Below are positions 10,266 to 13,706 of a stretch of DNA of 64,000 bases, in pieces. Source of the stretch: a virus; IMG/VR virus record IMGVR_UViG_3300030102_007788, positions 97,149 to 161,148 of that record. The stretch is one strand, 5' to 3'. The notes under the pieces are model-generated. The model ran no database searches, was not told the origin of the DNA, and saw only the letters and a program-made list of their open reading frames with translations. The translations under genes and the position numbers were made by a program. Each line of letters begins with the position of its first letter. Position 1 is the stretch's first letter.

Positions 10266-11201
10266 TTAGTTCGCGGCCAGATCGACCACGGTGGCAGTCT
10301 TCTGCTTTTCAGGAACCTTGGAGGTCAGCTTCTTAAAGAAGGCTGGCTCGCGGGTTGCCTTATGCAGATTGCCAAGCACGTTCCGGTTAGAGCGTGATGA
10401 CAGCTCAAACCGATGTTCCTGAACCTCGTGGGTGAGGTGTTGCGTGACCGCGTTGTACAGGTTGTACATATTGCGATCATGTGCCACGGCGTCATGGCCC
10501 GACTCGATCCGAAAAGACTTGTTAGTCCAGATCGGCGCGATGGAATCCTTGAGGGACTCAGACAGAACTTTTTTAATGACAAGATTGTCAAGAATCAGTT
10601 CGCCTTGCTCTTTGGACAGTTCAAACTCCCTCATTTTTTTGAAGACGTTCACCGACTCGCGGTATTTGTCCATGCACTCATTCAGCGAATCCGTGATTGA
10701 GTCGAAACTCAAACGGGTGCTGTGACGTTGGCTCAGGCTGGTATCGTTAACCATTGTGACCATGCCATTGCTGCAGATCTTCCGAAGAAGACCAAGACTC
10801 CAACTCAAACCACAACTCCGGTCAAAAGAGTTGTTGAGGGTCAGGCGCATCGAAACGATGTCACCGACGGCTACCTCCTCCTGCTGGCCGGGGAAGTCGT
10901 AAACCCCATAAAACCGCGCCCCATCACGGGTAGCTAGTTTTTTGGATTTGAATTCACCGAGGTTGCTACCACGAAGGGCTTCCTCGACCTTTTCAACAAC
11001 GACTCCGTTGTTGACGATTTCGTACTGCTTAGTGCTAGTACCCAGACAGACTCCATTGTCTGTGCGAAAGTTCCCGAAGATGGGGGACTTTCCGACCACT
11101 ACCGGTCTCTGCTTGTGATCATACAAGGGGCGTTGTTCCACCTCGTAATCATACTCGCGAGAGTGTAGCGTCTCTTTTGGTATGGATTGTTTTCTGCTCA
11201 T
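10266..11201 (-). CDS. DUF932 domain protein, 311 aa
   Basis: The sequence has the features of DUF932 (phage/plasmid-like protein family): GKSPIFGNFRTDNGVCLG, STKQYEIVNN, a central GARFYGVYDFPG, MRLTLNNSFDRSCGL and LRKICSNGMV, then a long helical C-terminus. The family is widespread in phages and plasmids; its biochemical role is not established. It forms a single-gene cassette between repeat copies 2 and 3 with its own promoter and terminator. Confidence 0.8.
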   Translation of the reverse strand: MSRKQSIPKETLHSREYDYEVEQRPLYDHKQRPVVVGKSPIFGNFRTDNGVCLGTSTKQYEIVNNGVVVEKVEEALRGSNLGEFKSKKLATRDGARFYGVYDFPGQQEEVAVGDIVSMRLTLNNSFDRSCGLSWSLGLLRKICSNGMVTMVNDTSLSQRHSTRLSFDSITDSLNECMDKYRESVNVFKKMREFELSKEQGELILDNLVIKKVLSESLKDSIAPIWTNKSFRIESGHDAVAHDRNMYNLYNAVTQHLTHEVQEHRFELSSRSNRNVLGNLHKATREPAFFKKLTSKVPEKQKTATVVDLAAN

Positions 11202-11261: not shown

Positions 11262-11331
11262 CCCTTTTTTTGTAATTATTTTTCTTTTTTTTATGCTTGA
11301 CTTTTCTGAACGAAACTCCGACAAGGTCCAT

Positions 11332-11413
11332 CCTAAGTCATTGGTAATCAAGGACTTAGGGCCGCGGCGGGGGGGCGCCGCCGGCGTAACCCACTGACTA
11401 TCAATAACTTACG
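11332..11413. repeat. 82-bp triple-palindrome element, copy 3
   Basis: Left 29-mer CCTAAGTC...GGACTTAGG, core with GGCGGGGGGGCGCC, right 29-mer CGTAACCC...ACTTACG. It abuts a minus-strand terminator. Confidence 0.9.
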
Positions 11414-11446
11414 ACAAAAAAAACCCACGGCGTTGGCCGTGGGTTA
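11414..11446 (-). terminator. Rho-independent terminator
   Basis: On the minus strand CCCACGGC/GCCGTGGG with loop CAAC is followed by eight T. It ends the transcript carrying gene 11580-11822 and its structured tail. Confidence 0.85.
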
Positions 11447-11453
11447 GTGTTAT

Positions 11454-11584
11454 GAAGAGACGTATAGATGTCTCAGGAGAGTGAAGCCCTCGCCTTGGTA
11501 AAACCCGCTAGGGTAGAAAGTATAAAACCCCTAACGGTAAAACCCAAGGCAAGGGCGACTTGAAGGAAAGGAGGAACCTTCAAG
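11454..11584 (-). ncRNA. Structured RNA in the 3' tail of gene 11580-11822
   Basis: Three hairpins lie between the stop codon and the terminator. The central one has a 13-bp stem (11486-11498 with 11544-11556), an internal loop carrying GGGTTTTACC on both sides and an inner 7-bp stem (11507-11513 with 11529-11535). In both stems the imperfect pair is C-A on the plus strand but G-U on the minus strand, so the RNA is expected on the minus strand, matching gene and terminator. The hairpin at 11559-11584 has a perfect 8-bp stem and loop TTCCTCCTTT, equal to the anti-Shine-Dalgarno CCUCCUU of 16S rRNA. Function unknown. Confidence 0.6.
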
Positions 11585-11822
11585 CACCTTTAGGAAGTAA
11601 CCAGCTCCCTAAAATTCTCAGAAAATTTGGCTTTGTGAGATAGCGGTCAACTTCTTTTTGAGTAGCCAACCGAAGGTGTTCGGCGGGAATCGCTTTCTGA
11701 TTCTTTCCGTGTCTTTCGGTGACAACTCTTGATTTGCTGAAGTTGTTTGAGATTACGCGCTCAACTTTTTTTGTCTTTGTATTGTAGTACAACGAACCGT
11801 TTCTTATCTTGGTAAGTTTCAT
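11580..11822 (-). CDS. Small basic hypothetical protein, 80 aa
   Basis: The start (MKLTKIRNGSLYYNTKTK) is set by the promoter at 11833-11861, 10 nt upstream. A longer in-frame reading to 11897 would run through that promoter. The protein is basic with a hydrophobic end (FLRILGSWLLPKGA). Its stop codon lies in the first hairpin of the structured 3' tail. Function unknown. Confidence 0.7.
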   Translation of the reverse strand: MKLTKIRNGSLYYNTKTKKVERVISNNFSKSRVVTERHGKNQKAIPAEHLRLATQKEVDRYLTKPNFLRILGSWLLPKGA

Positions 11823-12344: not shown

Positions 12345-12369
12345 CAGCGTACCCTGTCTAATATATAGT
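12341..12369 (+). promoter_or_regulatory. Sigma70-type promoter for gene 12392-12643
   Basis: TTGACA, 17-bp gap, TATAGT. Here the leader is longer (22 nt to ATG) and contains AAGGGA as a ribosome-binding site, unlike the near-leaderless family members. Confidence 0.75.
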
Positions 12370-12391
12370 TATCAGCAGTTAAGGGAACAAC

Positions 12392-12643
12392 ATGAATCAG
12401 AATCAAATGGATGATCATTGGCTGAGGCCGCGAACAAAAGCGGGAACTGAAGAGATGCGGAAAAGACTCAAAGCTATGAGGTTTATGCTGGAAGAAGCAG
12501 CGGCTCAAAGCCTAGAGGGCCGGATAGCTTCTAAGGTATTCAATGAATACTTTTCTTTCGAGTGGGAGGATGTACCATCCCTAGAAGAAAAAAAAGTAGA
12601 TTTAACGAAAAAGGTGGTTGACACCGCTGCCAGTGTGCAGTAA
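12392..12643 (+). CDS. Small hypothetical protein, 83 aa
   Basis: Starts MNQNQMDDHWLRPRTKAGTE after a proper Shine-Dalgarno. The helical middle (MRKRLKAMRFMLEEAAAQSL) could form a coiled coil. The last codons contain the promoter of a downstream RNA. Function unknown. Confidence 0.7.
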   Translation: MNQNQMDDHWLRPRTKAGTEEMRKRLKAMRFMLEEAAAQSLEGRIASKVFNEYFSFEWEDVPSLEEKKVDLTKKVVDTAASVQ

Positions 12644-12646
12644 GAT
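12618..12646 (+). promoter_or_regulatory. Promoter of structured RNA 1
   Basis: TTGACA, 17-bp gap, TAAGAT; the -10 box contains the stop codon of the upstream gene. No start codon follows; instead a folded RNA begins near 12653. Confidence 0.65.
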
Positions 12647-12652
12647 GAGTTT

Positions 12653-12813
12653 TCCCTTCGGGGACTTGTTAATATAACTTGTATATCTGTCTCCCTGTTA
12701 GTGGAGGTTAACTAACAAAGGTTATAGTAGTCGCACCTTCAATTGTATTATTGTTGTGTTTCATAGTAAAGGGAGTCAGACTGGGCTGACTTAAAACAAC
12801 CCAGACGCTTTTT
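12653..12813 (+). ncRNA. Candidate structured RNA 1
   Basis: About 160 nt between a strong promoter and a terminator-like hairpin (CTGGG 12781-12785 with CCCAG 12800-12804, then TTTTT). A long-range stem joins TCTGTCTCCC (12686-12695) and GGGAGTCAGA (12771-12780). Inside are TGTTAGT/ACTAACA with loop GGAGGTTA (12696-12717) and AAGGT/ACCTT. The GGAGG in the loop is a bare Shine-Dalgarno. There is no open frame of note. No known RNA family is recognised. Confidence 0.55.
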
Positions 12814-12840
12814 GAAAATTTGAGTTGACGGAGTTAAATA
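12812..12840 (+). promoter_or_regulatory. Possible promoter of structured RNA 2
   Basis: TTGAAA, 17-bp gap, TAAATA. An alternative -35 TTGACG at 12825 lacks a good -10. RNA 2 could also be made by read-through from RNA 1. Confidence 0.4.
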
Positions 12841-12846
12841 CCCCTG

Positions 12847-13101
12847 CGAGTTTCCGTACATTTACTCGTGCCCGTTTTACTGCTGGTGGTGCGGCAGCAA
12901 CTCATTAATTTCCCTTCTCGACGGAGAAGGGCGGTGTGACGGAATTAATCTCTCCCAAGGAGATAACGTAGCACCTGCGGAAGTACCAACGGCTAAGTGG
13001 TTGAGGGAAAACGTGGGTGAGTCCGAAGTAGGTTGATAAGAAACTTTGTTTCTCGGGAACCGAAAAGGTGTTGGTAAACAAATAATCCAACCACCATTTT
13101 T
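12847..13101 (+). ncRNA. Candidate structured RNA 2
   Basis: About 255 nt with several stems: CGAGT/ACTCG; ATTAATT (12905 region) with AATTAAT enclosing a perfect CCCTTCTC/GAGAAGGG hairpin; TCTCC/GGAGA; GAAAC/GTTTC; and a final GGTGTTGG/CCAACCACC stem before TTTTT. It has no convincing coding frame. I looked for tmRNA, RNase P and group I intron landmarks and did not find them. Confidence 0.5.
13067..13101 (+). terminator. Terminator of structured RNA 2
   Basis: GGTGTTGG pairs with CCAACCACC (one bulged base), followed by ATTTTTAATTT. Confidence 0.55.
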
Positions 13102-13112
13102 AATTTATAACA

Positions 13113-13328
13113 ATGAAAACTAAACACGCCCAAAGAAAGGCAGAGAAAAGAAAGGCAACCCGCAGCCTTAAACTTGATGCGGTCAAGACTCGCGACATAA
13201 TTGTCCGTGGCTTGAAGCAAGAAGTTAAAAGAGACTTTCGTCGCTGGAAAAAGAATCATGCTGGCAAGGTTGAGATAATTTCTCATATTAAAAAATTGGA
13301 ATCGCAGGTTAATCAAATATTCTCATAA
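13113..13328 (+). CDS. Small basic hypothetical protein, 71 aa
   Basis: Starts MKTKHAQRKAEKRKATRSLK; strongly basic and helical, so nucleic-acid binding is plausible. It lies 11 bases after the terminator of RNA 2, and is coupled by TAATG to the zinc-knuckle gene. A separate promoter is not evident. Confidence 0.65.
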   Translation: MKTKHAQRKAEKRKATRSLKLDAVKTRDIIVRGLKQEVKRDFRRWKKNHAGKVEIISHIKKLESQVNQIFS

Positions 13329-13507
13329 TGATTTGCTATGAGTGTGGCATCAAAGCCCAACGCAAAGAAACAAGATCAGCCAAGAAAGAAAGCCGCGATC
13401 CTCAAATAACTATTAGATGCGGCACATGGCGTAAAGGTTCATGCGATAAGTGTAAGAAAAAAAGAATTCATGTAACAGAAATTTCTGATTTTATTCTGAT
13501 TAAATAA
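13328..13507 (+). CDS. Small zinc-knuckle protein, 59 aa
   Basis: The ATG overlaps the previous stop. The protein has CYECG near the N-terminus and CDKCKKKR later, two CxxC-type pairs that could hold one zinc ion, with many Lys and Arg between them. Probably a nucleic-acid-binding or regulatory protein; function unknown. Confidence 0.65.
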   Translation: MICYECGIKAQRKETRSAKKESRDPQITIRCGTWRKGSCDKCKKKRIHVTEISDFILIK

Positions 13508-13602: not shown

Positions 13603-13684
13603 CCTAAGTCACTGGTAATCAGTCACTTACGACTCCGGAGGGGGGGCGCCGCAGCCGTAAGTCATTGGTATTCAACGACTTAAG
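13603..13684. repeat. 82-bp triple-palindrome element, copy 4
   Basis: Left 29-mer CCTAAGTC...CACTTACG, core GGAGGGGGGGCGCCG, right 29-mer CGTAAGTC...GACTTAAG. It separates forward from reverse genes. Confidence 0.9.
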
Positions 13685-13706
13685 GTGTTTTTTTTGTCAA
13701 GGTTTT

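Follow-up and report, generated by a model that had tools for sequence, protein, structure and literature searches.

A covarying pseudoknot and a boxA-like box at the head of a modular phage RNA with a manA-family domain at its end: a candidate antitermination leader

GOLLD and ROOL are large, ornate noncoding RNAs, some of which occur in phages. The manA RNA has been a riboswitch candidate since 2010, and the part of its original description drawn on here places it in potential 5' UTRs (PMC2864571); in the genome of the cyanophage S-CREM1, manA and wcaG are both termed cis-regulatory in the section of that report consulted (PMC9964418). Antitermination leaders make use of boxA, for which an excerpt of PMC5725501 gives the consensus GYTCTTTAANA. 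Here we describe an untranslated phage region in which an H-type pseudoknot (module A), a boxA-like box and a further structured domain (module B) precede a manA-like domain (module C). Tentatively, and with rather less than even confidence, we read its first part from the sequence as a promoter-proximal leader that would exert Nus-type antitermination on RNA polymerase for a long, untranslated, modular phage RNA. In an open-access collection that lacks most subscription journals, searches on manA and wcaG, put-like leaders, large or structured phage RNAs and phage boxA brought up no paper with this set of modules in its title or abstract opening.

The DNA analysed (the window, 64,000 nt) is the part from 97149 to 161148 of a virus record of 170,406 bases, and its matches to a terminase (in PHROGs and Pfam) and to a clamp loader (in PHROGs) indicate a tailed phage. 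Relatives were reached through patterns and one protein, and the frequencies given below apply to what those patterns reach. With the 83-aa product of ORF 12392-12643 as bait six loci were obtained, the orthologous region being present in L002-L004; pattern scans raised the set to 21 different contigs that contain a manA-like module, the window counted and duplicates of a single contig (L001-L006, L013) excluded here and from the other counts. L051, with a B but no C, came from a scan for the loop of module B; one for the hairpin-bearing form of module A brought no new locus, and every locus that it hit had manA. Because L053, L057 and L058 are cut before upstream modules could show and L016 begins at C, 17 of the 21 contigs are informative on whether A is missing, and 12 of them carry it; L055 is also cut and so stands outside the count of downstream genes. 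Matches to the module HMMs include the sequences from which the models were built. The neighbouring 139-aa protein as bait gave no confirmed relatives, and at the DNA level the region itself had no match in phages, apart from hits at E up to 10 that were mostly chance; the Listeria record L023, from the permissive DNA search, yielded nothing by Rfam or ARAGORN. Thirteen bacterial contigs with the manA-core pattern (L038-L050) contained no module at E <= 0.01, and we therefore take their pattern as chance. At curated thresholds Rfam reported tRNA-Cys alone in the whole window; near the region it found no tmRNA, RNase P RNA or group I intron, and ARAGORN found no tmRNA in the window.

Table 1. 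Features of the untranslated region and its flanks (window coordinates)
Feature	Positions	Strand	Remarks
Sigma-70-type promoter, TTGACA-17-TAAGAT	12618..12646	+	Inside end of ORF 12392-12643; 10/12 consensus letters
5'-end hairpin, UUCCC-UUCG-GGGA	12652..12664	+	Also in L008 and L011; altered form in L018
Segment originally singled out	12653..12813	+	Between ORF 12392-12643 and ORF 13113-13328
Hairpin with loop GGAGGUUA	12693..12717	+	Loop 12703-12710; stem 12696-12702/12711-12717; CCC before; covaries in L008, L012, L018
Module A, H-type pseudoknot	12775..12804	+	Stem 1 12775-12779/12786-12790; stem 2 12781-12785/12800-12804
boxA-like box, GCUUUUUGAAAAUUU	12807..12821	+	After pseudoknot
Module B (type B2), three-way junction	12822..12903	+	Closed by GAGUUG/CAACUC; loop UGGUGGUGCG
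Module C, manA (RF01745)-like	12912..13102	+	3' end CCAACCACCAUUUUU
ORF, 71 aa, very basic (MKTKH...)	13113..13328	+	KTKH...KKAEKKK family

An earlier, sequence-only reading had placed a strong promoter within the end of the preceding gene, starting a discrete structured transcript of about 160 nt without a gene (12653-12813). The promoter is indeed there (Table 1), and no + strand ORF of at least 40 aa lies inside the segment. Promoter-like sites in 12350-13350 number 3 in a scan, as against 1.5 in shuffles, and when the 200 nt before the pseudoknot were shuffled 200 times, an equally good promoter arose in 4 cases. Within that distance 6 of the 12 pseudoknot-bearing sequences, the window counted, have a promoter of at least 10/12 letters; the other six have none, and four of these (L009, L010, L014 and L015) closely follow an ORF, as judged by eye. 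The proposed 3' end did not hold, for there is no terminator-like site near 12813, as a discrete small RNA needs, and the T-run is interrupted in several relatives. What survives of the structured RNA is thus its freedom from genes, its own promoter and a conserved GGAGG loop, whereas its boundaries are replaced by those of a longer RNA that ends in the manA-family module; on comparative sequence evidence the segment is the 5' part of an untranslated region of about 450 nt that reaches to about 13101. A hit to a trivial known family had been named as one result that would overturn the claim: the segment itself matches no Rfam family, manA included even at permissive thresholds, whereas its 3' continuation belongs to a known one.

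By alignment of 12 sequences the conserved core of the segment is the H-type pseudoknot (GUCAG-a-CUGGG-CUGAC-uuaaaa...-CCCAG), whose last loop contains an additional hairpin in eight of them. Standard pairs occupy 168 of 168 cells in both stems and the loop hairpin, compared with 90.2% in shuffles; the cells changed on both sides number 18 rather than 6.5, and the covariation score of 0.241 (0.082 when shuffled) was reached by none of 500 shuffles. When the partner strand is slid by 1-3 columns, 24-44% of the cells pair. The number of pairs with a change on both sides (4, reached by 224 of 500 shuffles) and of further pair types (7, reached by 424 of 500) are not above shuffles, and since 11 of the 16 pairs are invariant the support comes from four pairs, of which stem 1 supplies two and stem 2 and the extra hairpin one each. 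U-G pairs in L017 and L019 fit the + strand only. This pseudoknot, and not the multi-branch fold closed by a 10-nt stem (12686-12695/12771-12780) that had been drawn from the single sequence, is the main fold. The long stem is not conserved (by eye, L012 keeps four of its pairs, CCCU/AGGG, and L008 keeps none), and although it belongs to the minimum-energy fold it cannot coexist with the pseudoknot, because 12775-12780 are shared with stem 1. That single-sequence fold is unexceptional (-40.1 kcal/mol, z -1.15; 21 of 200 shuffles equal or better).

A box of the form [GC][UC]U[UC]UUUGA[AU] follows within 150 nt of the pseudoknot in 10 of the 12 sequences (it is absent in L014 and L019), against a background of 59 matches in 865,750 bases on both strands of the fetched loci, or 0.010 per 150 nt with the 10 included, the pattern having been drawn up after inspection of the sequences, which are related. 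At up to one mismatch GYTYTTTGAAAATTT has a single site in the 170-kb record, which is this one, and in the alignment of relatives the linker around the box varies in length and content, with the box persisting. The box in the window, GCTTTTTGAAAA, is two letters off the published boxA consensus, which may not be that of the host; that of several relatives, GYTCTTTGAAAA, is one letter off. The arrangement is that of a boxA leader, namely promoter-proximal structure, box and untranslated RNA, and may be compared with E. coli rrnB (L037), in which a hairpin and GCTCTTTAACAAT stand behind the second promoter.

Among 50,697 phage records, the best DNA match of the stretch from A to the box was to Kuravirus-like phages at a non-significant E of 0.1, within a stretch of about 1.95 kb without annotated genes. 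Boxes matching GCTCTTTAANAAT occur three to four times per 3-kb stretch in Kuravirus-like phages and in a Vectrevirus, E. coli phages unrelated to the one studied here, some of these boxes in the arrangement promoter, small hairpin, UUAAAA-like stretch, box; in the Vectrevirus they are scattered among annotated early genes and not gathered in one empty stretch. The strict promoter pattern precedes only two boxes, both of the Vectrevirus, and none in Kuravirus, where several boxes follow TTGACA-like sites by eye. We take these boxes as a parallel and not as homology. The annotation-free stretch, of about 1.8-1.95 kb, lies behind a small-terminase-like gene in L022 (979-2926; PQ819470), L034 (EU330206) and L036; with its three to four copies of an E. 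coli rRNA-type boxA, it has the look of a noncoding-RNA array whose leaders are of the rRNA kind.

In the mechanism that we tentatively propose, the promoter in the end of the preceding gene would start an untranslated RNA of about 450 nt consisting, in order, of 5' hairpins that are optional and include the one with the GGAGG loop, the pseudoknot, the box, module B and the manA-family module, with the gene for a small basic protein usually just behind. Pseudoknot and box would act on the transcribing RNA polymerase, as an rRNA or phage antitermination leader does, NusB-S10 would bind the box, and the long, hairpin-rich untranslated RNA would be transcribed to its end, together with the gene behind it. 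We infer this action on the polymerase, as well as transcription through B and C and service to the untranslated RNA, from the covariation of the pseudoknot, the enrichment and uniqueness of the box and its retention amid a variable linker, the order and covariation of B and C, the rrnB layout, the boxes of E. coli phages and the near-consensus boxA of relatives. Against it stand the two deviating letters of the window's box, the lack of a box in L014 and L019, the post hoc pattern and relatedness of the sequences, the 4 of 12 loci that closely follow an ORF and themselves have no promoter of at least 10/12 letters, and the lack of significance of the Kuravirus similarity.

Module C, which makes up the last 190 nt of the untranslated region, matches the manA model over its full length (1-192). 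At permissive Rfam thresholds the match in the window (12914-13101) scores 45.5 bits (E 6.7e-10), below the cut-off of 55.2 bits; it begins about 100 bases past 12813 and is the only manA match in the virus record. A scan at these thresholds of 13 of the 14 early module C contigs (all but L012) found manA in each of the 13 distinct contigs, the window counted, with L009 (58.4) and L015 (56.3) reaching the cut-off and 11 below it. The GGUG/CACC pairing is kept in 13 of 13, the 5' hairpin and the 3' stem covary, and RNAalifold itself draws the long-range GGUG/CACC.

The region could instead be a cis-regulatory leader of the MKTKH gene, a possibility that we consider unlikely. The manA module would then alternate between two states, the GGUG/CACC pairing over long range and a terminator hairpin formed locally (GGUGUUGG...CCAACCACC-AUUUUU), either as a riboswitch or in autoregulation by the basic protein, and the upstream domains would be accessory. 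Its strongest support is the close link between module C and the gene, since in 14 of the 20 contigs with readable downstream DNA (L010, of weak likeness, counted) a KTKH...KKAEKKK gene starts 3-11 nt after C. By eye, these starts lack a Shine-Dalgarno sequence; both folds can be drawn, with CACC common to both, and the published proposal of manA as a riboswitch candidate points the same way. In the other six contigs (L009, L012, L014, L015, L016 and L020), however, C is followed by another gene, by none or by module B; the local hairpin is disrupted in its outer part, by eye, in L009, L010, L014 and L015, and A, the box and B are left unexplained. The 71-aa protein itself belongs to no Pfam or PHROGs family.

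Also against a purely 5'-UTR role of the manA family is its position in the Synechococcus phage S-CREM1 (OP535465), where manA (96.6 bits; L024 1716-1930) lies exactly between tRNA-Leu, ending at 1714, and tRNA-Asn, starting at 1929/1930; the fit is such that release by tRNA processing could occur. In the same cluster wcaG (92.7 bits) precedes tRNA-Met. Ten cyanophage wcaG loci (L024-L033), namely S-CREM1 and nine chosen ones, all among 74 records, were compared: a tRNA gene lies within 50 nt behind wcaG or overlaps it in five (L024, L026, L027, L028 and L032), and a protein gene comes first in the other five, with an enzyme annotation in L029, L030, L031 and L033. Modules A and B were found in none of the ten, and the S-CREM1 manA as bait recovered only itself. 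Tandem wcaG-like matches, the first below the cut-off, are present in S-RIM4 and S-H35 (L025 1366-1697, L026 1356-1691).

The modules are self-contained and their order varies. The B2 model matches the window at E=3.5e-27, the window being among the model's own sequences, and the closing stem in seven sequences reads GAGUUG/CAACUC, AGGUUG/CAACCU or AAGUUG/CAACUU. In a structure derived by RNAalifold from the same alignment, 98.9% of 175 cells are paired, with 15 both-side changes and 10 both-side-changed pairs, values reached by none of 500 shuffles; further pair types were not outstanding (161 of 500 shuffles reach them). Type B1 (six sequences) has a different core and the same end hairpin, with the loop UGGUGGYGCG. 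All 12 loci with A also hold B and C, in the order A-B-C in 11 and A-C-B in L014, and L016, whose 5' end is cut, reads C-B. C occurs without A or B in L021, L052, L054, L055 and L056, and in L051 B2 lies between two copies of a domain E. This domain, with a core GCUAUUAAGAUGC and a variable closing stem, was seen at L051 7255-7530 and, by eye, at L012 6165-6290 and on the minus strand of L018. A domain D closed by GCUCUUGAG/CUCAAGAGC is optional between A and B, also by eye.

Independently closed modules in shuffled order, behind a promoter of their own, would suit a free-standing phage RNA that acts in trans, possibly as an RNP with the MKTKH protein or as an RNA-only assembly like GOLLD or ROOL, with the GGAGG and UGGUGGYGCG loops as contact sites; we regard this as improbable. 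The conservation of loop sequences on covarying stems and the location of manA and wcaG within tRNA clusters of some cyanophages agree with it, and the strong linkage to one type of downstream gene, the absence of the GGAGG hairpin from 9 of the 12 leaders and the failure to find a target speak against it.

That 7-bp hairpin, to which the sequence-only reading had drawn attention, is borne out: its stem covaries inside an unchanged frame (CCCUG-NNN-GUGGAGGUYAAY) in the window, L008, L012 and L018. It is found in 3 of the 12 pseudoknot-bearing leaders; that of L018 sits elsewhere, behind an ORF and before a terminator-like hairpin. A plain-sequence search of viral contigs found the GGAGG pattern also in L059-L062, in all four without the stem and in apparent coding sequence. 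From this distribution we judge the hairpin to be a real, optional element. The pairing with an anti-SD hairpin 1 kb away (11559-11584) fared worse, as five pairs at most (GGAGG/CCUCC) could form and the CCUCC loop belongs to a minus-strand transcript; no counterpart was found in the fetched DNA of relatives carrying the GGAGG hairpin, and one look-alike, in L004, lies in apparent coding sequence homologous to window ORF 10266-11201. The GGAGG loop may possibly pair with 16S rRNA. The idea of a discrete small RNA of about 160 nt exposing a Shine-Dalgarno sequence to either partner, with a real promoter and a loop conserved wherever the hairpin occurs, is very improbable given the missing terminator, the B and C modules that follow the pseudoknot in 12 of 12 loci, the rarity of the hairpin and the partner's absence from relatives that carry it.

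Two further elements lie nearby. On the minus strand of window 11391-11620 a hairpin loop UUCCUCCUUU is followed by internally repeated GGGUUUUACC units and then by a hairpin resembling a terminator; the fetched relatives match it only over 33 nt in L004/L011 (E 0.004), besides short matches to the repeats. A repeated intergenic element, AAGTCATTGGTAATCAA...CTTA with a G/C-rich core, occurs at window 11330-11410 and 13605-13690 and in L005 and L018; it is also read into ORFs as SLIVNDLR and looks like a dispersed repeat.

The anatomy of the region, its covariation, its linkages and the shuffling of its modules have been established by comparison of sequences. Beyond this it is possible, if doubtful, that marine-type phages shuffle self-contained RNA domains (A, B1/B2, D, E, C and the GGAGG hairpin) much as protein domains are shuffled, that manA belongs to these domains instead of being a riboswitch aptamer, and that an rRNA-like antitermination leader reads the assembly through. 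To view manA as an interchangeable part of a longer phage RNA, and as a unit between tRNA genes, changes which experiments are sensible, and the covarying pseudoknot with its boxA-like box offers a directly testable candidate antitermination element from uncultured phages.

Set against described systems, the region resembles several in part. GOLLD and ROOL, to which neither the window nor the scanned relatives have an Rfam match, differ, as outlined in the part of PMC12286853 used here, from the small, separable modules of variable order found in these phages. The wcaG RNA (RF01761) has a UGGUGGUGCGG loop beside a hairpin, resembling module B and the start of C; its structure is otherwise different, and the B/C stretch is not a member, the match at 12857-12945 scoring 17.6 bits (E 0.68) against a cut-off of 42 bits. 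With manA (RF01745; Weinberg 2010, PMC2864571, in the portion describing it) module C shares a 5' GACG hairpin and a long-range pairing near the ends; unlike manA it lacks the hairpin with a GUGGUG loop, a similar loop being found here in module B, and the presence of A and B beside C in 12 of 21 loci is not described in that portion. HK022 putRNA is also a structured phage leader, about 70 nt long and close to a promoter, and it acts on RNA polymerase, as is proposed for the present leader; by the description in the excerpt of PMC9378689 on which the comparison is based, however, put consists of two stem-loops and works without a dedicated protein factor. The rRNA boxA leader and the lambda nut site differ in having a plain hairpin in place of the pseudoknot, and from their box that of the window departs by two letters; they share with this locus the succession of promoter, small structured element, GYTCTTTRANA-like box and untranslated structured RNA.
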